From: Acidobacteriota bacterium
Lineage (GTDB): Bacteria > Acidobacteriota > Terriglobia > Bryobacterales > Bryobacteraceae
NCBI GenBank assembly: GCA_026394075.1
Contig: JAPKYX010000072.1
Span: 1 to 64,000, forward strand
Direction of reading: 5' to 3'
DNA: 64,000 nucleotides
Position numbers and translations under genes: made by a program. This document shows positions 25,248-39,383 of this stretch, piece by piece. Below the pieces are notes generated by a model. The model saw only the letters and a list, made by a program, of their open reading frames with translations. It was not told the origin of the DNA and made no database searches. Positions within the stretch are counted from its first letter, which is position 1. The number at the start of each line of letters is the position of its first letter.

Positions 25248-26108
25248 CTACGAGCGCGACGCCCGGCGGCGGCGCACGGCGAAGACGAGGCCAGTCAAAC
25301 CGAGGCTGAGGGCCCCATAGAAGCCCGGCTCCGGCACCAGCGTTACCTTAAAGATGGCGTCGTTGTAATCCTGATCGCCGCCCGGGAGGTTGGTGTCTTC
25401 AACGCCGATCAACGCGACGAAAGGCGAAGTTTGAGAAGGAACAACTTTGCCGATATTCTCGACAAAAACGGCGAACTGTTGCTGTCCACCGCCCGTGCTC
25501 TTGCTGCTCTCTGAAAAACGTCCAGAGCTCTTGAGCGCGGCCAGAACGGTGCCGGCGGACTGCCCGTCTTGGCTGGAGTCGCCATAGTTAGGCAGCAGCC
25601 AGAAGCCGAAAGTGCCGGCCGGCGAAAAGGCCACCGTGTCACCAACAGTATTTGAACCCTTGAAGATGACACCAAAGTCGGAAGTAGTCAGCGAAGCGAT
25701 GGACTTCGACGAATCGTACCAGCCGATCCAGTTCCGGGGTGCCCAGCCCGCGATCTCCGCCAGCAAGGTCGGGTTCGGAGCTGACGCTGTTCCTTGGAAG
25801 GAAATATTACTGATTGCCGAACCATCATTATTGGCGAGGTAAGCCGCGCCCTGCCAGTTGGGGCTGTTGGCTGGGGAGCCGACGTTGGTCACAAAGCAAC
25901 CCACGTTCCGGCAGGTAGAGCCGTCGTCCGTGTTGTTGTTCCAATAAGATGTCTGATTGCCGGGCGTGCTGACATCTGTATCAACAATCTTCTCGCCAGA
26001 AATGACTACAGAATTTGGAAGAGCCAGCCACGGGCCGGAGGGGAGAGTGAATTGGGCCCACGTGAGTGAGGCCGGGGTGAGAAGCAGCGCTAGGGCGAAT
26101 TTGTTCAT
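25248..26108 (-). CDS. PEP-CTERM secreted protein with DUF4114-like segment (copy 1)
   Basis: A 286-residue exported protein. ATG at 26108 gives a proper signal peptide (MNKFALALLLTPASLTWAQ); the longer frame to 26153 adds 15 residues before it. The C-terminus is VPEPGFYGALSLGLTGLVFA followed by RRRR, a PEP-CTERM sorting signal: motif, membrane helix, basic tail. Just before is VEDTNLPGGDQDYNDAIFKV, the Asp-rich pattern of DUF4114. It is probably exported, cut at the PEP motif by the exosortase at 31817 and delivered to the surface or EPS. It is paralogous to the next gene (same FTLPSGPW...LPN...VSGEKIVD start and same cysteine pair near CRNVGCFV). Confidence 0.88.
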   Translation of the reverse strand: MNKFALALLLTPASLTWAQFTLPSGPWLALPNSVVISGEKIVDTDVSTPGNQTSYWNNNTDDGSTCRNVGCFVTNVGSPANSPNWQGAAYLANNDGSAISNISFQGTASAPNPTLLAEIAGWAPRNWIGWYDSSKSIASLTTSDFGVIFKGSNTVGDTVAFSPAGTFGFWLLPNYGDSSQDGQSAGTVLAALKSSGRFSESSKSTGGGQQQFAVFVENIGKVVPSQTSPFVALIGVEDTNLPGGDQDYNDAIFKVTLVPEPGFYGALSLGLTGLVFAVRRRRASRS

Positions 26109-26299
26109 GATTGGGCTTTCGAAACCTCGTAAACCGTCTATTGGCGAAGTCAACGCTCACCAATAGGTCTATGTTACTGGACAAAGATGCCCTTGAATAG
26201 TACCAAAGGTGTTTACATGTCACTGGACGATGCAGGGTACGCATAGTACCCTCGAAGCGGTCAGCCACTGATACCAGATGACCTGGGGTGGGTTGGCGG

Positions 26300-27166
26300 T
26301 TATCGGGCAGCGCGGCGGCGAATGGCCGCCATGAGAGCGCCCAGGCACAGTGCCAGTGCCCCGTAAAGGCCCGGTTCCGGCACAAACGTCACCCGGAAGA
26401 TGGTGTCGTTGTAGTCCATGTCACCGCGAATCGTATCTTCGGCGGAAATCAACAAGTTGAGCGTGGATGCGTTGACGGCGGCTAGGTTCTCCGCAAAATA
26501 GGTGAAGTATTGCGTAGTCTGGCCAGCCCCCGCGGTGTTCTTGGAGCTTTGGGTAAAGCGGGCTGTGTCGGTCTTCAGAGCAGCGGAGAGCTCCGTGGAG
26601 GTCTTGTCCGTATTCGAGAAGCCGGCCAAATACCAAAAGCCAAACTGGTTGGTGGGAGAGAAGTTGGCCTGCTTACCAACACTGTCAGAGCCCTTAAAGA
26701 TCACACCCCACTTCGTGCCGAAATTGGCGGAGGTGAGTTCCGAAGTCGGCAAAGTGGCGTCATACCAGCCCACCCAACTCCTGGCCTTGAGGGAGGTGAT
26801 TTCGCCATTCAGCACAGCCGGACCAGAGACACTGCCCTGAAAGTATACATTCGTCACCGCCGTACCATCGGTATTGGCGATGTAAGCAGCGTCCCTCCAG
26901 ATGGCGTTGGTCAATGGATCAGAAGCCGTGGAGGCCACCCGGCCGGTGACAATGCATCCAATGTTCTTGCACGTCGTGCCGTCAGCGGTATTGTTGTTCC
27001 AGTAGGCTGTCTGATTGCCCGCGATGTTGCGGTTGGCATCGACAATCCTTTCGCCGGAAACTGCCAGCGGATTGGGCAACTGCTGCCAGGGACCGGCAGG
27101 CACCGTGAACCCCGCCCAAACCGATGCGGCTGTCACAAACAGAAAAACTGTCGAAAAGCGCATCAT
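26300..27166 (-). CDS. PEP-CTERM secreted protein with DUF4114-like segment (copy 2)
   Basis: A 288-residue paralogue of the neighbouring gene. The first of two adjacent ATGs (27166) is chosen, giving MMRFSTVFLFVTAASVWAG as signal peptide; a longer frame starts at 27199. Shared features are FTVPAGPWQQLPNPLAVSGE, NQTAYWNNNTADGTTCKNIG, SWVGWYD and EDTIRGDMDYNDTIFRV before the sorting signal VPEPGLYGALALCLGALMAA with a basic tail IRRRAAR. Tandem duplication with the upstream copy is evident at the protein level. Both are preceded by AGTACCAAA (26199-26207 and 27224-27232). The role of the mature domain is unknown. Confidence 0.88.
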   Translation of the reverse strand: MMRFSTVFLFVTAASVWAGFTVPAGPWQQLPNPLAVSGERIVDANRNIAGNQTAYWNNNTADGTTCKNIGCIVTGRVASTASDPLTNAIWRDAAYIANTDGTAVTNVYFQGSVSGPAVLNGEITSLKARSWVGWYDATLPTSELTSANFGTKWGVIFKGSDSVGKQANFSPTNQFGFWYLAGFSNTDKTSTELSAALKTDTARFTQSSKNTAGAGQTTQYFTYFAENLAAVNASTLNLLISAEDTIRGDMDYNDTIFRVTFVPEPGLYGALALCLGALMAAIRRRAAR

Positions 27167-27330
27167 GGTGGAGAAGTGGCACATCGCGATATCTAACACT
27201 ATCAGTGGGTGCCAAGTATGACAAGTACCAAACGCGTTGAGTAGTTTAGTAGGACCAATAGTACTGCGATCAGCCAGCTGTATTCTGTTTGCGCTCTGTC
27301 TTCGCGTTGGGTCAGCCGTAAGGCTGGGCG

Positions 27331-30483: not shown

Positions 30484-31155
30484 CTAACGGCCGAAAACCG
30501 GTCCTCCAGGAGTCAACACCAGTGTCGGACTTGCGGAACTGGTTCCGCTGGTGAGCCGCCAGGACAGGATGCCACCTCCCGCCGCGCCACCGATCAGGAT
30601 CCAGGTGAGCTTCTTCTTGTACCAGGGCGTAGCCGCGATCATCGGGCCAATGTAGGCACCATTGGTATTGGTCTGCGTAATGGTGGCTTCGCCCTTGCGG
30701 CCGGAAGATGTGGCCGTTACTTTGATCTCGAACCGGCCAAGGACACCATTGATCAGGAACGGTGCCGTGGCCTGACCTTGCGAAGTGGTGCGCGTTGTCA
30801 GGGTCGTCTGATTGCCGGGAAATGTGCCCCCGGGGCCAGTCTCGGGCAGAACAAACACCACGGTGGCGCCTTCCACGGGAAAGTCATTCGCGTCCCGGAC
30901 TTCCACCACGGGAGGCACCGCTCGCCCCAATGGAATCGAATTCATGACGTTGCCGCCCTCCAGCACCAGGATGCGTAGAGCGGTCGGTACCGTTTGTGCG
31001 GTCGCTGCCTGGGCGGTCGCTGCCTGGGCGGTCGCCTGAGCCGCAGGCGTGCGGGGCGGTGCCGCCGGAGGTGCCTGGGCCTGCACACCCAGCACCAACA
31101 GCAGATTCACGGCCAGCCAACGAATGGGCCCAGTGCGCAGTTTCGTCGGTCTCAT
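30484..31155 (-). CDS. Secreted protein with Ig-like (Big-1-type) domain, exosortase operon
   Basis: A 223-residue protein: signal peptide (WLAVNLLLVLGVQAQA), a low-complexity linker (AAQATAQAATAQAATAQ, partly encoded by two perfect 15-bp copies at 31001-31030), and an Ig-like domain (PPVVEVRDANDFPVEGATVV, then GQATAPFLINGVLGRFEIKV). Then follow YKKK, a Gly-rich membrane segment (LTWILIGGAAGGGILSWRL) and a short tail ending TPGGPVFGR. It overlaps the EpsI gene by 4 nt (ATGA). The C-terminal helix may anchor it in the membrane; it lacks a PEP motif. Function unknown. Confidence 0.72.
   Translation of the reverse strand: MRPTKLRTGPIRWLAVNLLLVLGVQAQAPPAAPPRTPAAQATAQAATAQAATAQTVPTALRILVLEGGNVMNSIPLGRAVPPVVEVRDANDFPVEGATVVFVLPETGPGGTFPGNQTTLTTRTTSQGQATAPFLINGVLGRFEIKVTATSSGRKGEATITQTNTNGAYIGPMIAATPWYKKKLTWILIGGAAGGGILSWRLTSGTSSASPTLVLTPGGPVFGR
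31001..31030 (-). repeat. Tandem 15-bp repeat in the linker of the Ig-like protein gene
   Basis: Two perfect direct copies of GTCGCTGCCTGGGCG (plus-strand reading) at 31001-31015 and 31016-31030, with a third partial copy. They encode the AQAAT linker and could expand or contract by slippage without shifting the frame. Confidence 0.8.
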
Positions 31156-31820
31156 CGATCCTTTTTCTCTGGAGCAGGGAAGTAGGGGCGCATCTCAGGA
31201 TAAATCAGGGTAGCCAGATCGACGGCACGGCGGTCCGCCAACTCTACTCCTTTTTCATCGACTGGCATGACGATCCTCACTAGGGCCATATCGGTCCGAT
31301 TCTCGCGAATCGCACTCCATACCCGGTGCGCCCGCAGTTGCTGCTCAAAGACCAGTGCCTGATCATGAGTCTGGAACCAGTAGAGAACTACCGCCTCCGC
31401 GTCTCCTTTGGCGATCCGGTAGTAGTTAACGGGAAAGGTGGAGCCATCTGGCAAGCGCACATCCATCACCCGGGAAACGCGCGGATTCCAGCCCGAGCCC
31501 GGGAGGCAAACCTTGGGGTCGTGCGCGTTCTTGGCCCGCAACTGCGTCTTGTAGTGGCTGACAAACAGGCTGGAGCGGGTAGCGGAACCGGCTAGCTGAA
31601 ACTCGCGGGTCAGTGCATCATCCGGCCCCAACATCTCCAGCACTTCCGGTTCAATCACGCCATCCTGCGTGAAGGACCACTCTCCCAGCCGCAGGGGCAG
31701 GCTGGCCAATGGCGGTGTGACCGGCAGATAGGGCTTCCGCTCCAGCGTGTACGAAGCCGCCGCCTGCGCGGCCAGGATGGCCACGCCCCCCCACAGCAGC
31801 CAGATTCGCCTGTCGATCAT
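31152..31820 (-). CDS. epsI: EpsI-domain protein (exosortase-associated)
   Basis: A 222-residue protein beginning at the ATG at 31820, which overlaps the exosortase stop (ATGA); a longer frame to 31916 runs inside the exosortase gene. An N-terminal membrane helix (IWLLWGGVAILAAQAAASYTL) is followed by the EpsI domain: LPLRLGEWSFTQDG, FVSHYKTQLRAKNAHDPKVC with LPGSGW, VNYYRIAKGDAEAVVLYWFQ. EpsI domains occur next to or fused with exosortases and take part in EPS production; the mechanism is unknown. Here it is a separate polypeptide in the same operon, probably in the periplasm attached to the inner membrane. Confidence 0.92.
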   Translation of the reverse strand: MIDRRIWLLWGGVAILAAQAAASYTLERKPYLPVTPPLASLPLRLGEWSFTQDGVIEPEVLEMLGPDDALTREFQLAGSATRSSLFVSHYKTQLRAKNAHDPKVCLPGSGWNPRVSRVMDVRLPDGSTFPVNYYRIAKGDAEAVVLYWFQTHDQALVFEQQLRAHRVWSAIRENRTDMALVRIVMPVDEKGVELADRRAVDLATLIYPEMRPYFPAPEKKDR

Positions 31821-32716
31821 TGCGCTGCCACCGGCGCGGCGTGCGGTTTGATCAGCTTGTTCAACATCCAATGGCATAGAGCGACCAACGCAAAACCCAC
31901 AAAAAAGCCTGACCATCCCAGCATGTCATGATACGTGCCCTTCGTCCAAGCAGGATTGTACTTGCCCAGGACGCCGGTGGAAGTAATGCGTAAGACGTTC
32001 ACGAAGATCGCCGCCGGGATGGCCAAAGCCACCACCACGCCACGCACCCACCCGCGCGGCTCCATGAAGTAAGCGTAAACTATGCAGAAAAACGTCAGCG
32101 TGATCAACGAACGGAGTCCGCTACAGGCTTCCACGACGTTCAACCGCATGTGTGCCAATTGCAAGATGTTGCCGTCGCGCATTACGCCAAAGCCGATCAA
32201 CTCAAACGCCAGCTCTGAAAGACTGCTGGCCAGCAGCTGAAGTGGTTGCGTAATCTGCCCGTAGAGAACTTCGGGCACCGGGAATGTAAACAGCAGTAAG
32301 AACAGCGGGAAAGAGAGCCGGCGGAGCAAGTTGAAGCCGCCAAACAACAACGCGCAACCGGCCAGCGAGATCAAGAAGGCGAACCTTGAGAAAGTGGACG
32401 AATTGGCCACGGTGGACAAGACTCCCAACAAAGCGGCCAAGGTCAAAGCCGTTCCCCCCCACCAACTCGGCCGAACGGAGGGTCTGAGAATCTGCTCCCG
32501 CAATTCCCACACCAGATAGAGCGATACCAGCGGCGCGAACAAGCCGTGGGCCATGTCTTCGCTCGAGACCAGAATGACACCCGTCATACGGAGCATGGGC
32601 CAGTAGCACAGCACCAGCAGTGCCGCGAATATCCCCAGCAAGAAGGGTGGGAAAGTGGCCGTTGCCGGGACAGGTAGCGGATGCGAACTGGCGACTGGGC
32701 CTGTTAGGATCTTCAT
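31817..32716 (-). CDS. Exosortase (transmembrane PEP-CTERM sorting peptidase)
   Basis: A 299-residue polytopic membrane protein with about eight hydrophobic helices. The catalytic triad of the exosortase/archaeosortase family is visible: Cys198 in VVEACSGLRSL, Arg243 in NVLRITSTG and His263 in TYHDMLGW. It should cleave after the PEP motif of exported substrates; three such proteins are encoded nearby (25248, 26300, 34316). It is first gene of a five-gene operon with EpsI and three secreted proteins. The start is only 21 bp from a divergent gene for a Cys-repeat protein, so the promoters must overlap coding ends. I do not assign an exosortase subtype. Confidence 0.94.
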   Translation of the reverse strand: MKILTGPVASSHPLPVPATATFPPFLLGIFAALLVLCYWPMLRMTGVILVSSEDMAHGLFAPLVSLYLVWELREQILRPSVRPSWWGGTALTLAALLGVLSTVANSSTFSRFAFLISLAGCALLFGGFNLLRRLSFPLFLLLFTFPVPEVLYGQITQPLQLLASSLSELAFELIGFGVMRDGNILQLAHMRLNVVEACSGLRSLITLTFFCIVYAYFMEPRGWVRGVVVALAIPAAIFVNVLRITSTGVLGKYNPAWTKGTYHDMLGWSGFFVGFALVALCHWMLNKLIKPHAAPVAAQ

Positions 32717-32737
32717 GAGGAGCTTCTCTTAGTTGTA

Positions 32738-33667
32738 ATGCAACCGGGCCCTTGTTTGCACGCTATTTCGTACCATAACTGTCAAATTGGCTCCGCGGCC
32801 AAACTTTTTGGCCTCGGTTTGGCCTTGGCCCTGTCCCTTGGCGGACAATCCCGACCGATTACGCCCGATTCCAACCTGGACCGCTGCCTGAAGGGTCTTC
32901 CAGGCTGTGATGTCAGTAGTTTACGCCCGGATGAGATCGCCCAAGTTGCGGAGGTCAGCCGCCGGCGCAACAGCGAATCGTGCCGCAGCGGTGCCCCCGG
33001 TTGTGACCCCACCGCGCTATCGCACGAAGACCAGTTGGCGGCACAGTCTTTTTTCCGCCGCCGCAATTTGGAGCGATGCCTGGCTGGGTCGGCCAATTGT
33101 GAGCCGGTGGTGTTGACGCAGGAGGAGGCTAAGCGAGTGGCCGGTGAGCGCCGGAAGCGGAATCTCCAGAACTGCCTGGAAGGTACTGCGCAGTGTGACC
33201 CGGTCCTGCTGAATCAGTCCGAATCGGAGGCGGTGAACAAAGCGCGGCAAGTCCGGAACTTTGAGCTCTGTAGTAATGTCTCTCCCAAGTGTGACCCACT
33301 TCTGTTGAGCGCGACGGAGAAGACCACGGTGGCCACCGGCCGGCAGCGCCGTAACGTCGAGTTCTGCCTCAACGGCCAGCCCCAATGCGACCCGTCCGCC
33401 CTAGCGCCATCTGATGCGGTGCAAGTGGCCAATGGAAGCCGCAAGCGGAACTACGACCGCTGCCTGAGTGGCTCAAACAACTGTGACCCGATCGTGCTGA
33501 CGCCGGAAGAAGCGAAAGCCGTCGCTGCCGGGCGGAAGCGCCGTAACGTGGAAAACTGCGTCGCCGGGTACTTTGGCAAGTGCGACCTATCGGTCCTCAA
33601 TGCCCCGGAGCTGGCCAACGTCAGCGCCGCCCAACGCCAGCGTGCCGCCACCCAGAAGAGTCGTTGA
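32738..33667 (+). CDS. Secreted protein of eight 32-residue, two-cysteine tandem repeats
   Basis: 309 residues. A hydrophobic stretch (LFGLGLALALSLGG, 23-36) acts as signal peptide or anchor. Residues 46-302 are eight tandem repeats, seven of exactly 32 residues and the last of 33. The pattern is N-x-(D/E)-x-C-x6-C-(D/E)-P-x-x-L, then about 12 helix-prone residues, then basic RRR/RKR before the next N. Examples are NLERCLAGSANCEPVVL and NYDRCLSGSNNCDPIVL. All sixteen repeat cysteines are kept (the last pair is spaced x7). The repeat starts fall at residues 46, 78, 110, 142, 174, 206, 238 and 270. I do not recognise the family. It is divergent from the exosortase and is followed 13 bp later by a NusG paralogue. 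The start is uncertain; a TTG at 32756 is possible. Confidence 0.85.
   Translation: MQPGPCLHAISYHNCQIGSAAKLFGLGLALALSLGGQSRPITPDSNLDRCLKGLPGCDVSSLRPDEIAQVAEVSRRRNSESCRSGAPGCDPTALSHEDQLAAQSFFRRRNLERCLAGSANCEPVVLTQEEAKRVAGERRKRNLQNCLEGTAQCDPVLLNQSESEAVNKARQVRNFELCSNVSPKCDPLLLSATEKTTVATGRQRRNVEFCLNGQPQCDPSALAPSDAVQVANGSRKRNYDRCLSGSNNCDPIVLTPEEAKAVAAGRKRRNVENCVAGYFGKCDLSVLNAPELANVSAAQRQRAATQKSR
32873..33643 (+). repeat. Coding tandem repeat, eight units of about 96 bp
   Basis: Encodes the eight 32/33-residue Cys-repeats. Units share short DNA blocks such as CGCCGTAACGT (two copies near 33350 and 33540) but are mostly diverged at third positions, so the expansion is old and kept by selection on the protein. 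Confidence 0.8.
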
Positions 33668-33680
33668 GGATTGACGGACC

Positions 33681-34229
33681 ATGAACCATGAATCGAACAG
33701 CGGGGAGGTGGCGTTGTCTCCCGAATCTTCAGCGCTCGTGGCCCCTTGGTACGCCCTGCGCGTCCGTTCCAATTTCGAGAAAAAGGCCAGTGGCGCACTC
33801 GCGCTGAGAGGGTTGGAGTGCTTTCTGCCCTCGTACAAGATCCGCCGCAACTGGACGGACCGGGTAAAGGTGGTTGATCAGCCCTTGTTCCCCGGTTACG
33901 TCTTCGCCCGCTTTCAGCATCCGCGCGATTGGCTCATGGTGATGCAGACCCCTGGGGTCGTGCAGATCGTCGGCCAGGGCCAAGAACCCACCATCGTCGA
34001 CGAAGCCGAAATCGAAACCCTGCGTAAACTCGTGAACTCCACCGTCCCGTTGTTCCCGCGCGCCTTCCTGAAGGTGGGCCAGAAAGTACGCATCGAACAC
34101 GGCCCGCTGGCCGGCACGGAAGGGATACTTGAGAAGTTCCAGAAAGACTACCGGCTGGTGGTCTCCATCAGCCTGCTGCAACGCTCGGTTGCGGCGGAGA
34201 TGGACGCGGATTGGGTGAAAGGCGTCTAG
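33681..34229 (+). CDS. Specialised NusG paralogue (UpxY/RfaH-like antiterminator)
   Basis: A 182-residue protein with an NGN domain (PWYALRVRSNFEKKASGAL, then GLECFLPSYKIRRNWTDR and DQPLFPGYVFARF, TPGVVQIVG) and a C-terminal KOW domain (KVGQKVRIEHGPLAGTEGIL followed by EKFQKDYRLVVSI). Its length and location beside surface-polysaccharide genes mark it as a specialised NusG that lets RNA polymerase read through long operons. The EPS operon from 64 kb to 46.6 kb or the exosortase operon are the natural targets. It follows the Cys-repeat gene by 13 bp and ends at a bidirectional terminator. Confidence 0.9.
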   Translation: MNHESNSGEVALSPESSALVAPWYALRVRSNFEKKASGALALRGLECFLPSYKIRRNWTDRVKVVDQPLFPGYVFARFQHPRDWLMVMQTPGVVQIVGQGQEPTIVDEAEIETLRKLVNSTVPLFPRAFLKVGQKVRIEHGPLAGTEGILEKFQKDYRLVVSISLLQRSVAAEMDADWVKGV

Positions 34230-34315: not shown

Positions 34316-35182
34316 CTACGCCTTGGTGTTGCGACGGCGAACCGCCACCACCAAGCCACTCAGGCCCAGCGCCAGCGCGCCGTAGAAGCCCGGCTCGGGC
34401 ACAACCTGAACCAGGAAGGTCTGCTTGTCCGCGCTATCCGGATTGGTTTCCAGGATTCCGCCGTCCGCGATCCAGCTCACCACGGCCCACCTGGTCATAT
34501 CGACAGTGGCGTAGTTCGCAACGGCCTGTTGGCGCCAGTAATCACTCTTCGCCTGCTGCAAAGCGAGTGTATTGTCTGCACCCGTCACGAGATCGAACGT
34601 GCTGGTGCCACCGGCCGGCGAAACATTGTTATGCATAATCGCCCAAATGGCCTTCTGGAGGGCGTCATTCTTGGCGGTGCCGGTCATGGCAACCGGGTTC
34701 GAGGAGAAGCCGTCGTACTGCGACACCAGGTAGGCCGCCATCCGGAACCGCTCAGTGGCGGACACCAAACCGGCAGCGGCGCCATTGACGTCGTTGGTCC
34801 AACCCGGAGCGGTCGGTGCCAGGGCGCTGATCTCCTGATACCGGACGGTGTTGGCGGCAGCGCCGGCAACCTGGTCCAACCGGGTGATGTTGGCCTTCAA
34901 ATTCTGTTCGTTCGTATTGAAGAACAGTTGAGAGTCAACACACCAAAACGTGGTCTCCAGGTTTCCTAACACGTTCGCCGGGTTGGGAGTGACCGTACCG
35001 GCAAAAGCGCCGCCGCCGCCGCCGGCGGCAGAGCCGACGCGACCGCTAAAGGACACTGTTTTCGGGTTGGGTAACCCCACATAAGCGGAGTTGTCGGGCA
35101 GCGGAGCCCGGGCCGCTGACGCGAGGCCGGCGGTAATGACCGCAAACGACGCGATTCGAAGGGCGAGATTCGTAGATTTCAT
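34316..35182 (-). CDS. PEP-CTERM secreted protein (copy 3, distinct family)
   Basis: A 288-residue exported protein. ATG at 35182 gives MKSTNLALRIASFAVITAGL as signal peptide, with AAAGGA about 16 nt upstream; a longer frame starts at 35224. The body has FSGRVGSAAGGGGGAFAGTV, ETTFWCVDSQLFF and ALQKAIWAIMHNN, features common to thioester-less PEP-CTERM surface proteins with a single Cys. The sorting signal is VPEPGFYGALALGLSGLVVA followed by VRRRNTKA. It differs from copies 1 and 2 in its mature part but shares the same extended signal. It ends at the bidirectional terminator. Surface display or EPS attachment via the exosortase is inferred. Confidence 0.87.
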   Translation of the reverse strand: MKSTNLALRIASFAVITAGLASAARAPLPDNSAYVGLPNPKTVSFSGRVGSAAGGGGGAFAGTVTPNPANVLGNLETTFWCVDSQLFFNTNEQNLKANITRLDQVAGAAANTVRYQEISALAPTAPGWTNDVNGAAAGLVSATERFRMAAYLVSQYDGFSSNPVAMTGTAKNDALQKAIWAIMHNNVSPAGGTSTFDLVTGADNTLALQQAKSDYWRQQAVANYATVDMTRWAVVSWIADGGILETNPDSADKQTFLVQVVPEPGFYGALALGLSGLVVAVRRRNTKA

Positions 35183-35530
35183 TTCGAAATGTTGTTTTCC
35201 TTTCTCAATCTTCCTCAAGATCAACCTGAGAGATAAGTAAGTATAGACAGCTAGAGAGAGCTAAGTCAAAGTAAAATGCACGGGAATAGGCGGTAATGCA
35301 AGTGTCTGTTGCTAGTGGTACTAGTAGTAACAATGGCCCGAATCGGGCCATGAATAGGCAGCGGCAGAGCTCCAACCATCGAGAGCATCGTTGGAACCCC
35401 TGATAATAAAGCCGTTCAAGTAGACGATGAGGCGGCTTCAATGGTACTGTGTCGCCCGGTACTGGCGCACTTGCGGCACGCTACGCCGTGACAGTATTCA
35501 TGACGGTACTGGAGGTTATAGAACTTATCG
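35183..35530. other. Regulatory-looking intergenic region before PEP-CTERM gene 3
   Basis: 348 bp without a gene. It is AT-richer than its surroundings and contains four GGTACT hexamers (35317, 35443, 35458, 35505) and a 19-bp inverted repeat (35333-35351). No clear sigma70 promoter was picked out; the region should hold the promoter of the PEP-CTERM gene and the end of the TPR transcript. Confidence 0.5.
35333..35351. promoter_or_regulatory. 19-bp inverted repeat ATGGCCCGA-A-TCGGGCCAT
   Basis: Perfect 9-bp arms with one central base. It lies 151 bp upstream of the PEP-CTERM gene start. The 9-mer TCGGGCCAT recurs at 39506-39514, in the promoter region of the Ig-repeat protein, each time next to a GTACT. 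Operator function is inferred. Confidence 0.45.
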
Positions 35531-37846
35531 TTAGCGCAGCGCGGCGTCGATTTCCTTTAGCTCTGTCTCGCTGGGTTTGTTCTTCCGGGCAGACTCCAGC
35601 AGATCCCGGGCTTCCTGCTGCTGTCCCAACGCCTTGTGCGTGAGGGCGGCGTGGAGCTGAAAGGTGGGGTTCTTGGGGTACTTGCGCAGCAATGAGCGGA
35701 GCAACTGCAGGGCACTGTCCGCCTTGCCGGACTTCAGGTAGATCATGCCCAGCGTATCGGTAAACAGCGGGTTTTCCGGTTCCTTCTTGACTGCTGTCTG
35801 GGACAACGTCAGTGCTTCATCCAGCTTCGTGTTAGCCAGCATCAGGTTCCAGGCGAGATTATTCATGATGGACGCGGTGTTGGGGCTGGCCTGAAGGGCG
35901 CGCCGGAACGCCGCTACTGCGTCGGAATAGCGGCCAGACAGTTCCAGTGCTTCACCCAGCAAGGCCGGTGCGACGTGATCTGCCGGGCTCAGTGATTCAG
36001 CCTTCTGAAAAGCTACGATCGCGTCCGCTAACCGGTCTTGGCCTTGATGTACTTGGCCCAACCGGATCCAATGGGGGGCATGAGCGGGAAAGTCCACGGT
36101 CAGCTTCTGGGCGGTCGTTAGCGCCAGCTCCGGCTGCCGGGCCTCAATGGCCGCAGTGACCAATACTTCCCGTGTCTCGACATTGTTGGTCCGCTGAATG
36201 TCTTGCGTCAGCAGAGCAACCCCCTGTTGCGCCTGGCCTTGGCGAATACGGAGGCTGGCCAGCGCCCGGACGGCGCGGGGATCGTTGTTCTTGACTAGGC
36301 CCGTCAGCGTCCGCTCTGCCTCTGGAAACTTCTGCTCGGCCATGTTCAGCAAGCCCAGTTGGAGGGTCACCTCGGATAGGCGCGGATACTCAGACTCCAG
36401 GCGCCGCAGTTCTGCCCGGGTTTCGCCAAAGCGCTGCTGCTGCGCCCAGGCGGACGTACGAATCAACCGGGTCCGGGCATTGGTGGGTGCCAAAGCCAGG
36501 GCGCGGTCAGCGAACTGGAGTGCCTCGGCGGGATTGCGGTCACGTAGCGCGAGATCCGCCAACTCTTGGAGTGCCTCCGCGCTGCGCGGTGAACGCGTCA
36601 GCACCTCTTGGAAGATAGTGCGGGCAGCGCGCTCGTCTCCCAGCTGACGTTGCGCCCGGCCCAAGGCAGTGCGATAGCTGGCGTCGTCGGGATACTTAGC
36701 CACCAAGGCAGTGAGGTCGGCCAATGCCAGCTTGTTGTCAGCCGGCTGGTTGCTGGACAGCCGCAGGGCGGCCCGGGCAAACAGGGTACCGGGATCGTCG
36801 GGTGACTCCTTCAGCATTGCCTCCAGTGAGGCCGCTGCTTCGGCTGTCTTGCCGGAAGCCAACTGCAGCCGCACGATCCTCTGTTGGTAGGTGGCCCGCT
36901 GGGTTTTGTCGGACTGGGCCGCTAGGCCCTTCTGGTAGATGGCGAGCGCTTCACTCACTCGGCCGGAGCGGGCATAAAAATCGCCGCCCTCCAAGGGCGC
37001 CTCGGGATGCTGAGCCGTGTTGGCCACAAAGGCGCCCAGAAGAGCATCCGCCTCGGCAGTCTTCTTCTGGCTCACCAGGTGGTCGGCCAATTGGATCACC
37101 GCGAAGGCATTCTTCGGGTCGCGATCGATCTTGGTCCGCAAAAGACGCTCGGCCTCATCCGGCCGCCGGGCTTCAATCAGATGGGCGTAGAGCAGGTCGT
37201 AGAGTGGGCCATACTGCTTCAGGGCTCCGGAAAGATACTTCTGTGCGAACGCCTCGGCCTGTTCCGGTTGGCGGTCCTGCAACAGTGCCTGAACACGGCT
37301 GGTGACGACATCGGGTTGGTCCGGCTTTGCGGCAAGCGCCTTCTCAAAGAGTGCCGCTGCTTCGCCCGGCTTGGAATCCAGCAGCGACAGATACGCCCTC
37401 AGCCGCAGTCCTTCAAATGAAGTGGCGTTAGCGGCCAACAACTGATCCGCCATGCGGGTGGCGGTTTCATAAAGAACCGGCGGACGCTGCGGCAGGGCCA
37501 GCAAGCCATCCAGGGCCAGACGCCCCAGAACTACCTTGGCTTCTTCTGAGGCGGGCAGCAATTGCTGGGCCCGTTGCAGAATCAAGAGTGCATCATTCCC
37601 CTTGCCCTGCTGTTGCAGAACTTGGCCCAGCGCCAAATAGGCTTCACCGAAGTTGGTGTCCTTCTGGATCGCCTTACGGACCTCGAGAGCTGCGTCATCC
37701 AACTTGCCTTGCTTCAGGAACTCCTGGCCCCGCCGGAGAAAATCCTCCTTTGAGGATGAGCCGCAACCAGTGATGGTGAACAACACTGCGGCAGTTAGGC
37801 AGGCCCAAAAGCCACGTAGGGACCGGGAGGAGGAAAGCGGAGTCAT
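35531..37846 (-). CDS. Large TPR lipoprotein of the PEP-CTERM/exosortase type (PrsT-like), copy B
   Basis: A 771-residue protein from ATG at 37846 (a TTG at 37861 would add five residues). The lipoprotein signal is FWACLTAAVLFTITGCGSSS, then TPR repeats run to the end, for example KLDDAALEVRKAIQKDTNFG and SGRYSDAVAAFRRALQASPN. It shares architecture and parts of sequence with the protein at 22889 (such as ALEVRKAIQK/VLDFQKAIQK and the C-terminal NNLAWNLML/NNLAYLLAE), so the locus carries two PrsT-like proteins. It is 88 bp downstream of the WecA-type gene on the same strand and probably co-transcribed. Predicted location is an envelope membrane; the role in EPS secretion is inferred from family context. 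Confidence 0.83.
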   Translation of the reverse strand: MTPLSSSRSLRGFWACLTAAVLFTITGCGSSSKEDFLRRGQEFLKQGKLDDAALEVRKAIQKDTNFGEAYLALGQVLQQQGKGNDALLILQRAQQLLPASEEAKVVLGRLALDGLLALPQRPPVLYETATRMADQLLAANATSFEGLRLRAYLSLLDSKPGEAAALFEKALAAKPDQPDVVTSRVQALLQDRQPEQAEAFAQKYLSGALKQYGPLYDLLYAHLIEARRPDEAERLLRTKIDRDPKNAFAVIQLADHLVSQKKTAEADALLGAFVANTAQHPEAPLEGGDFYARSGRVSEALAIYQKGLAAQSDKTQRATYQQRIVRLQLASGKTAEAAASLEAMLKESPDDPGTLFARAALRLSSNQPADNKLALADLTALVAKYPDDASYRTALGRAQRQLGDERAARTIFQEVLTRSPRSAEALQELADLALRDRNPAEALQFADRALALAPTNARTRLIRTSAWAQQQRFGETRAELRRLESEYPRLSEVTLQLGLLNMAEQKFPEAERTLTGLVKNNDPRAVRALASLRIRQGQAQQGVALLTQDIQRTNNVETREVLVTAAIEARQPELALTTAQKLTVDFPAHAPHWIRLGQVHQGQDRLADAIVAFQKAESLSPADHVAPALLGEALELSGRYSDAVAAFRRALQASPNTASIMNNLAWNLMLANTKLDEALTLSQTAVKKEPENPLFTDTLGMIYLKSGKADSALQLLRSLLRKYPKNPTFQLHAALTHKALGQQQEARDLLESARKNKPSETELKEIDAALR

Positions 37847-37934
37847 ATATTGCTCGTTCAATTTTACGATGATTATCGGCGAGTGCGAACCAAGGCACTA
37901 GCAGGACAAGTCGAGACGGCAACGCAACGTCAAA

Positions 37935-39383
37935 CTACACCGTTTCAATGGCGTGCGCGTCTTGCGGGCGGACTAAGGCAGGCGAGTTGGAAAACTTCCC
38001 GTTCTTGAAATAGCGTTCCAATAGTACCGGAAAGGTGGAAAATAGTACCGGATGAATCGAACGCTGCGGATCATAGTATAGGTTGAGGAACTGCTCATCC
38101 GGCAGAGGCACGCGAACCTGCCAAAGGCCGGCCGCCGTCACCTCAGGTACAGATAGAGAATCATAAACCTGGCCCCCCCAACGCATCCGCGCCCCCATCC
38201 ATCCCAGCTCTTGACCGGTTTCCGAGATGGCCTGCCAAGCCTCATCAAACGAAACGAACTTCTCCAACTCCCGCTCAAACTGCTGCAAGAGCATTTGTGC
38301 CTTTACCATGTCACGAAACGCACCCCGGAAAATCATGCGGCTGGTGACCCCAAATTCGGCATACCCCAGGTGCTGGATTCCCAGCCAGGCGCCGGCACAG
38401 AACAGAATGATGATTAAACCACCAAACCGTTCATTCGTCATGTCTTGCAGTAACGCGAGTGCGGCCGCCACGCCACAACCGGCATAGAGCAGCAGCGCTG
38501 CCCGCCGGGGCGTGAACCCTTGATCGAGTAGGCGGTGATGGATATGGGCCCGGTCCGCCGACATGATCGGCTGCCGCCGCAGAAAGCGCCGCACCACGGC
38601 CAGTCCGGTATCGAGCAACGGCATCGCCATGGCGATCAAGGGGGCCGTCATGCCCAGAACGGTGGCGGACTTGTGGCTCCAGAGGGCTCCAAAACAGCCC
38701 AGCAGAAAGCCAATCAAGAGACTGCCGCAATCCCCCAGAAAGATGGAAGCCGGATTGAAGTTATACCGCAGAAAGCCCAGCAGCGCCCCTACCAGCGGAG
38801 CCGTCACAATGGCCAGTTCTACGCTGCCATGAACTAAGGCGGCCACCAGCGAGGTCATGGTCGCAAAAATGCCGACGCCAGCTGCTAGGCCATCCATTCC
38901 ATCAATTAGATTGAGAGCATTGGAGCAGCCAATCAACCAAACAACAGTGATCAATACTGAGGCCCACTCTCCTAATGGCTGCCCACGAAAAACCTGAACC
39001 CCGAATCCGGCCGAATAGGCCAACAAGGCCGCCACCACTTGACCGGCCAACTTCTGCCAGGGCCGCAAACCCCAAAGGTCGTCAGCCAATCCGGTGAAAA
39101 AGACCACCCCGGCCGCCGGGGCCAAAGCTAGCGAAGCCGCGATGCCGCGCGGCAGGTCGATCGTGAGATTCCGATAAGGGGCAAACGCTATGAAAGCAAT
39201 GGCGATAACGTACGCCACGACCACACCGATACCACCCACACGCGGAATCGGATGCTCATGCGTCTTGCGCACGTTATCTGGCTTGTCCACCAAGCCGAGT
39301 GCAATCGCGCGATCACGGACCAGCGGCGTCAGCAGCAGGGCCAAAAGGAAGGCGATCGCGCTAATATCAAAAACGACCAGCAT
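37935..39383 (-). CDS. WecA/TagO-type polyprenyl-phosphate sugar-phosphotransferase
   Basis: 482 residues; the first 340 or so form the glycosyltransferase family 4 membrane core with about 11 helices and motifs KTHEHPIPRVGGIGV, FFTGLADDLWGLRPWQK, NLIDGMDGLAAGVG, FLRYNFNPASIFLGDCGSLL and the HIHHRLLDQG segment. It transfers a sugar-1-phosphate to undecaprenyl phosphate and so starts EPS or O-unit synthesis at the inner membrane. An additional cytosolic tail of about 120 residues (from about MVKAQMLLQQFERELEKF) is not part of the minimal enzyme; related tails occur in Acidobacteria and cyanobacteria and may be regulatory. The likely partner is the EPS operon at 46.6-64 kb. Confidence 0.9.
   Translation of the reverse strand: MLVVFDISAIAFLLALLLTPLVRDRAIALGLVDKPDNVRKTHEHPIPRVGGIGVVVAYVIAIAFIAFAPYRNLTIDLPRGIAASLALAPAAGVVFFTGLADDLWGLRPWQKLAGQVVAALLAYSAGFGVQVFRGQPLGEWASVLITVVWLIGCSNALNLIDGMDGLAAGVGIFATMTSLVAALVHGSVELAIVTAPLVGALLGFLRYNFNPASIFLGDCGSLLIGFLLGCFGALWSHKSATVLGMTAPLIAMAMPLLDTGLAVVRRFLRRQPIMSADRAHIHHRLLDQGFTPRRAALLLYAGCGVAAALALLQDMTNERFGGLIIILFCAGAWLGIQHLGYAEFGVTSRMIFRGAFRDMVKAQMLLQQFERELEKFVSFDEAWQAISETGQELGWMGARMRWGGQVYDSLSVPEVTAAGLWQVRVPLPDEQFLNLYYDPQRSIHPVLFSTFPVLLERYFKNGKFSNSPALVRPQDAHAIETV

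Follow-up and report, generated by a model that had tools for sequence, protein, structure and literature searches.

We find that a gene divergent from an exosortase in a Bryobacteraceae genome encodes a member of a new family of tandem repeat proteins, here called REP, in which the repeat unit is well defined and its two cysteines are near-invariant. REP genes occur in two types of genomic context: particular exosortase/EPS loci inside the family to which the analysed genome belongs, and stress- or envelope-related neighbourhoods elsewhere. We propose, with a probability of about 0.5, that REP is a disulfide-stapled scaffold of the envelope or extracellular matrix and that particular exosortase/EPS loci of one family have taken it up. 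Throughout, the window denotes the whole 64,000-nucleotide stretch of DNA that was analysed, and G000 the genome from which it comes.

The repeat gene and its locus

The first cysteines of the eight REP units fall at residues 50, 82, 114, 146, 178, 210, 242 and 274, giving seven spacings of exactly 32 residues, with a last unit of 33. A second cysteine follows in every unit, as C-x6-C in units 1-7 and as C-x7-C in unit 8, so that 16 cysteines lie in the repeats and two more in the N-terminal region ahead of the array (Table 1). The eight-unit, paired-cysteine architecture given in a preliminary description of this DNA is thereby confirmed, while the finer consensus proposed there needs some loosening: the motif N-x-(D/E)-x-C-x6-C-(D/E)-P does not hold throughout, unit 4 having Q in place of D/E and the P being absent from units 1 and 8. 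The basic RRR/RKR unit end is missing from unit 4, which ends in ...KARQV rather than in a basic triplet.

At the DNA level, units 1-7 share a mean pairwise identity of 49% and the array escapes detection by Tandem Repeats Finder, so the 32-residue period is kept at the level of the protein; the earlier claim that the repeat DNA had drifted around retained cysteines thus stands. Furthermore, comparison with the 95% identical ortholog of a sister genome (L002) yields a dN/dS of ~0.15, like that of the adjacent exosortase (0.15; EpsI 0.17 and NusG 0.09 for the same genome pair). Judged against this one ortholog, REP is under purifying selection, as had been suggested from the repeat pattern itself.

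Beyond the array, REP terminates in ...AQRQRAATQKSR, without a hydrophobic segment. A reading of REP as an exosortase substrate was rejected, as no C-terminal PEP tail is seen by eye and no NCBIfam model matches, and inspection by eye likewise led us to reject a lipoprotein. Three other proteins encoded in the window (25248-26153, 26300-27199 and 34316-35224) end in VPEPGxYGALxLxLxxL...RRR and look PEP-CTERM-like by eye, with no NCBIfam match; the first of them carries a DUF4114 domain.

Table 1. REP and neighbouring features in the window
Feature	Coordinates	Strand	Remarks
REP gene	32738..33667	+	309 aa, ORF confirmed; exported-looking two-Cys 32-residue repeat protein
Signal-peptide-like N-terminal segment of REP, residues 1-38	32738..32851	+	By eye; hydrophobic stretch LFGLGLALALSLGG
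Eight-unit tandem array of REP, residues 45-301	32870..33640	+	Cys spacing; one predicted helix per unit
REP units 1-4	32870-32965, 32966-33061, 33062-33157, 33158-33253	+	
REP units 5-8	33254-33349, 33350-33445, 33446-33541, 33542-33640	+	
Gap between divergent called starts of REP and exosortase	32717..32737	.	21 bp; 20 bp in G871
Exosortase	31817..32716	-	PF09721 216 bits; TIGR02602 166 bits, cut-off 105.55
EpsI / DUF3485 exosortase-associated protein	31152..31916	-	Family match
UpxY-type NusG paralogue, directly downstream of REP	33681..34229	+	NF033644 120.3 bits, cut-off 100; 13 bp gap
Protein ending VPEP + hydrophobic + RRR	34316..35224	-	No NCBIfam or Pfam match; taken by us, by eye, to be a PEP-CTERM protein
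TPR protein like PrsT	35531..37861	-	TIGR02917 271 bits, under cut-off 312.2
WecA/MraY-type glycosyl transferase of EPS locus	37935..39383	-	PF00953

The called ORFs bear out both the 21 bp that had been given between the divergent REP and exosortase starts and the NusG paralogue after REP, which is of the UpxY family and follows after a 13 bp gap. The window exosortase is one of three exosortase-family matches in G000.

Distribution and conservation of the repeat family

Relatives of REP were found in eight of 396 phylum genomes with a single-protein search that included its own genome, while a two-unit profile recovered them from 36 of the 399 genomes sampled for the class. E-values of this profile went down to 2e-24 in a genome, G922, that had no part in building it. 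Recovery of the unit by this profile in dozens of genomes confirms that the repeat is real beyond chance. Carriers number 20 of 237 genomes in the window's own family, and, in the families that we label f40, f91 and f2, 5/14, 10/89 and 32 of 230 sampled, respectively; a weak match of the single-protein search, in G376 (E 7e-4, two internal stops), was excluded from later counts. Whole-genome searches for REP covered the phylum Acidobacteriota only. Among other collections, a scan of genome contigs with six REP peptide patterns returned four relatives, all labelled Acidobacteria or Bryobacteraceae, and the plasmid search returned one record with a relative, from Janthinobacterium. Phage records gave no REP match, and viral contigs searched with the L004 relative gave nine stretches with no relative among them.

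The family members that we read are mostly standalone proteins of 3-12 units with a hydrophobic N-terminal region. Across 306 HMM-located units from 41 proteins, the first cysteine (unit position 6) is kept in all 306 and the second (position 13) in 303, the remaining three (in G753, G265 and G698) having a cysteine one residue earlier; the unit HMM was trained on units holding both cysteines, and what it finds leans towards two-cysteine units. N2, G9, D14, L18 and V26 are the other strong positions, and REP itself conforms to the resulting 32-residue-period pattern of N2, C6, G9, C13, D14, L18 and V26. Other properties vary. Position 31 is His in 37% of units outside the window's family and mainly Arg inside it, and a pI above 8 is found in 13 of the 20 own-family members and in one of the 21 others. 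We had considered a conserved basic face and rejected it, as net charge is not conserved among members. In a REP tree built from 37 of the 41 proteins together with eight of 20 loci, 19 of the 20 own-family proteins group together, with G757 outside the group.

Several relatives have features of their own. The G755 repeat protein (L102) ends, unlike the window protein, in a hydrophobic stretch followed by basic residues, so a clear absence of an anchor is not universal in the family. G715, of family f2, has repeat matches at five places on four contigs (C63, C107, C209 and C279). The Janthinobacterium gene (L046, 9941-10975) encodes seven units and is missing from the PLSDB gene table; its product and that of L059 (G217), both distant members, share an extra C-terminal stretch of the type ENGS.YG...GY...GTYV.G.YRS, which no listed Pfam model covers.

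We could place the unit in no known repeat family, in agreement with the preliminary description: the window protein matches nothing above cut-off in Pfam or NCBIfam and has no match among PDB sequences. Two Pfam families came nearest. DUF7739 (PF24881) aligns with a 37-residue stretch of REP at 21.4 bits, under its curated cut-off of 27, and with the G840 and G871 proteins at 20-21 bits; it is below cut-off in every full protein listed and is listed for only one of 31 two-unit tiles. The whole-protein cut-off of aRib (PF18938; 27 bits) is exceeded in two of 16 relatives, L003 (36.8) and L004 (33.1), when short matches are added up, none of which passes by itself. A statement that no Pfam family passes in any relative would thus be too wide; the other 14 of the 16 pass no Pfam family. 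These short matches, of 23-28 residues in several members, cover at best about positions 8-37 of the 71 in the profile and do not span the domain length. They recur in seven of the 31 tiles, with E-values up to 1.4e-4, the window protein having no listed match. Rib domains are beta-rich, whereas REP is predicted to be all-helical. Sel1 and TPR profiles gave no match to E 1 in the window protein, nor to E 0.1 in the 31 two-unit tiles and 16 relatives. In PHROGs, searched with four proteins, the only match was a 14-residue stretch of the window protein at 20 bits. Finally, a literature search by title and abstract opening found neither a name for the repeat family nor papers joining exosortase, Acidobacteria and PEP-CTERM.

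Genomic contexts inside and outside the window's family

Inside the window's family, the proposed link between REP and exosortase/EPS genes holds well beyond the window: 14 of the 20 carriers have an exosortase within ~11 kb of REP and on the contig that holds it (G000, G546, G637, G648, G663, G755, G840, G843, G855, G856, G857, G865, G870 and G871), representing nine of 11 genera, where random placement would give ~0.19 linked carriers by rough densities. In the unlinked G531, G751, G753, G757 and G800, the contig that carries REP is short or ends close to the gene, and in G513, rated 100% complete, REP is present with no exosortase match. Two layouts recur among the linked loci. In the first, the exosortase is divergent from REP and a NusG paralogue adjoins REP downstream (G000, G546, G840 and G871, with the NusG domain checked in the last two); G755 has a divergent exosortase, cut by the contig end, and no NusG. 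In the second, a run of GT, EpsI, exosortase and Wzc-like genes is divergent from REP (G663, G855, G856, G857, G865 and G870), these families having been annotated in one or two representatives. One REP neighbour in G531 is a Poly_export (Wza-type) gene.

The linked exosortases are themselves a particular subset. In a tree of 51 of the 53 matched ORFs (a duplicate and one truncated at a contig end, from G755, being left out), 13 linked exosortases fall into two groups, the second with a support of 94, apart from the other exosortases of the same genomes. The only other members of the two groups come from G531, G751, G753 and G800, carriers whose REP gene and exosortase lie on different contigs. 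G865 has no exosortase match besides the linked one, which is hence not an extra copy there. When exosortases are defined by score, eight of the 237 genomes have clade-i members (at least 280 bits; next 246), and seven of these eight carry REP; six genomes have core clade-ii members (at least 290 bits; next 230), all of them REP carriers; below the clade-ii threshold come G870 (230, a carrier) and G480 (228) and G720 (211), both without REP. The pooled association between REP and the score-defined exosortases has a Fisher p of ~1e-15 with phylogeny ignored. G831 has two clade-i exosortases (C681 and C123; L160 and L161) and no REP in the pieces read, one of these genes lying ~310 bp from a contig start and the other standing without REP.

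Exosortases among EPS genes were described in 2006 in a paper that also names EpsI and a TPR lipoprotein (PMC1569441); the passages of it covered here contain no such repeat protein and call the periplasmic acceptor in exosortase sorting unknown. Compared with this PEP-CTERM/EpsH system (TIGR02602, TIGR02914, PrsT), REP is found in such a locus in its own family, yet by eye it has no PEP-CTERM tail, and it was not found near exosortases outside that family. The strongest form of a functional link, in which REP would be the dedicated partner of an exosortase subclass, a secreted, disulfide-stapled rod serving as scaffold or acceptor for its PEP-CTERM products and EPS with a fold not in the PDB, is in our view very improbable.

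Exosortase adjacency as a general rule is not supported beyond the family. We examined 32 outside carriers, of which 29 belong to the class sample and three to the phylum sample; many of the assemblies are fragmented, with contig breaks that may hide links. In none of them does a contig place an exosortase within 11 kb of REP, the smallest distance being ~37 kb, in G547, and for 11 of the 32 no exosortase was matched anywhere. Likewise, three exosortases used as queries found nothing in 40 outside neighbourhoods, with a median of ~7.8 kb on each side and some with much less, or in the plasmid locus.

These results bear on whether the exosortase link in the family could reflect hitchhiking in an accessory EPS island, with REP acting independently. 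The patchy presence of REP, with a single site in each own-family carrier genome, the lack of a detected exosortase link in the outside loci and the occurrence of REP in G513 with no exosortase match are all consistent with such a scenario. We nevertheless regard it as rather unlikely, given that linkage extends over nine of 11 genera and at least two local gene orders, and that, within the four genera compared, no member has REP or a score-defined exosortase without the other: both occur in G000 and G546 of g1, in four genomes of g240, in G865 of g363 and in G871 of g241, and neither occurs in G675 (g1), G858 (g240), G864 and G866 (g363) or the seven others listed for g241.

Outside the family, REP loci share other neighbours. 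Among 28 f2 loci from 28 genomes, chosen for score and usable contigs, 20 have a Crp-type regulator, 12 have Ysc84/SYLF, seven a zinc phospholipase C-like protein, seven a response regulator, five HSP20 and five OmpA, whereas none of the six occurs in 20 control windows from five f2 genomes (E 1e-15, with one response regulator at 1e-6). Fisher p values are 2e-7 for Crp, 4e-4 for Ysc84, 0.016 for the phospholipase C-like gene and 0.057 for HSP20, for neighbours that were picked after they had been seen to recur and with queries that were likewise taken from REP loci, the GroEL query from an f40 locus. Loci with this recurring island include L058, L064, L065 and L178-L194. In f40, groES or groEL lies within 2.7 kb of REP in four of five carriers (G066, G341, G885 and G890, not G889), and in G511 of f91 only 14 bp separate the end of groEL from the called start of REP; both chaperonin genes were named by reading the sequence rather than by a family call. 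They stand near REP in differing order in the two families (L061, L062, L175, L177 and L056), and in L062 the ORFs called for REP and groES have 4 bp in common.

The chaperonin neighbours, together with HSP20 and the Crp regulator, raise the idea that REP is secreted to act in the stress response as a redox or chaperone factor, either a disulfide buffer or a holdase. We judge this decidedly improbable: the argument is one of neighbourhood only, it would place an exported-looking protein beside cytosolic chaperones, HSP20 enrichment taken alone reaches p 0.06, and groEL, when searched for in the 28 f2 loci, was not found.

A further context is provided by the conjugative plasmid of Janthinobacterium J1-1, where the repeat gene lies amid copC, a CopD family gene, a copper oxidase, cueR and a CusA/CzcA-type RND system. 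A periplasmic protein that binds or buffers metal, in particular copper, through cysteine pairs acting on soft metals would suit both this copper-resistance setting and the near-invariance of two cysteines per unit. The plasmid is a single instance, however; His-31, a candidate ligand, is frequent outside the window's family (37%) but position 31 is mainly Arg inside it, and no metal-related family is found among the annotated own-family neighbours, most single neighbours lacking annotation. We therefore consider a role in metal binding quite unlikely, and of the functions guessed at from the window, a metal-binding array retains this one supporting context, whereas a disulfide-linked rod fits the data.

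Predicted structure and possible role

An AlphaFold2 model of full-length REP, based on five aligned sequences, has a pLDDT of 82.3 and a pTM of 0.48, the latter leaving the overall shape uncertain; 142 residues reach a pLDDT of at least 90, residues 1-40 remain under 50 and blocks from residue 51 range over 80-94. A three-unit stretch, modelled from eight in-register rows, gives a pLDDT of 92.6 and a pTM of 0.71. Each predicted unit consists of one ~20-residue helix that crosses the unit border (from positions ~20 to 7 of the next), followed by a loop with a three-residue turn, which agrees with the helix-prone stretch and two cysteines per repeat read from the sequence at the outset. In the models, Cys-6 occupies the last helical turn and Cys-13 the loop, an arrangement that makes a disulfide within each unit plausible. 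Presence of VKOR, one disulfide-forming enzyme, differs between the two groups of carriers: it was detected in all nine carriers tested outside the family and not found in eight of 11 tested within it, G000 and G546 included, and we count its scarcity there against the disulfide reading.

Our PDB searches found no close match to the predicted fold: Foldseek returned no match below E 0.19 for full REP or 1.4 for three units, and the highest VIA-align Z scores were 4.2 and 3.8, respectively, with the SLR-type entries 4bwr and 3e4b at only 3.0 and 3.4. The unit is a candidate for a new fold, of which absence is not proof. The same searches bear on whether REP could help to assemble the EPS/exosortase machine in the periplasm, as an adaptor of the TPR/SLR-like kind that keeps export or sorting components together, rather than be a component of the matrix. 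AlgK plays such a part in alginate secretion, and the best Foldseek match was a chain of the AlgKX complex (E 0.19), AlgK itself (3e4b) scoring Z 3.4 over 45 residues; moreover, an exported-looking helical repeat protein heads loci of the exosortase-EpsI-Wzc-like-GT or exosortase-EpsI-PrsT-like kind. On the other hand, these fold matches are within noise, no exosortase was found near the gene outside the family (0/32 carriers; 0/40 neighbourhoods), and G513 carries REP with no exosortase match, so that we hold an assembly factor to be unlikely.

Among known arrangements, two come nearest. Sel1-like repeat proteins such as the Helicobacter cysteine-rich (Hcp) proteins are secreted helical repeats with cysteine pairs, in which each repeat of ~36 residues forms two antiparallel helices. 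REP has Cys-paired helical repeats in common with them and differs in its one long predicted helix per 32-residue unit and in having no Sel1 match. The middle repeat region of CagY, from the Cag type IV secretion system of Helicobacter pylori, is described in parts of two papers (PMC2581425, PMC10706595) as exported tandem alpha-helical modules with two cysteines each and intrachain disulfides that are proposed to stabilise them. REP resembles it in having two cysteines per helical module; as described there, however, CagY modules combine a short (10 aa) and a long (17 aa) helix within a very large secretion-channel protein, while REP is standalone, with exact 32-residue units and one predicted ~20-residue helix. 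No CagY family was listed in Pfam scans of the window protein, the 31 tiles and the 16 relatives. REP may work like these two systems by analogy, membership in either not being established.

We favour a structural scaffold, since what the loci have in common is an exported-looking, Cys-paired helical array in stress or envelope-polysaccharide neighbourhoods. REP would be exported as an array of ~20-residue helices, each carrying Cys-6 in its last turn before a Gly turn, and the loop with Cys-13 would continue by way of the Asp to the following helix, which begins with Leu-Thr/Ser-x-x-Glu. A disulfide between Cys-6 and Cys-13 would presumably form in each unit outside the cytoplasm, and these staples could make the array a stiff, stress-resistant rod with no membrane anchor. 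Its job would most likely be structural, as an envelope or matrix scaffold possibly made under stress. In the window's own family of Bryobacteraceae-like Acidobacteriota, REP would have been recruited to particular exosortase/EPS loci, often divergent from the exosortase or from a Wzc-like/EPS operon, and there it probably works on or in a surface layer of polysaccharide and PEP-CTERM proteins, perhaps by binding to EPS or the cell surface. It is unlikely that REP generally serves exosortase products alone, because the contexts elsewhere are stress or envelope islands and groES/groEL loci.

The spread of the repeat family over several acidobacterial families offers a handle on the envelope and matrix biology of an abundant and poorly cultured soil phylum, and its regular, Cys-paired single-helix unit is a candidate for a new repeat fold. 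The co-occurrence of REP with particular exosortases bears on whether some of these enzymes have dedicated non-substrate partners; were REP such a partner, PEP-CTERM products and EPS might be assembled on it as their scaffold or acceptor.
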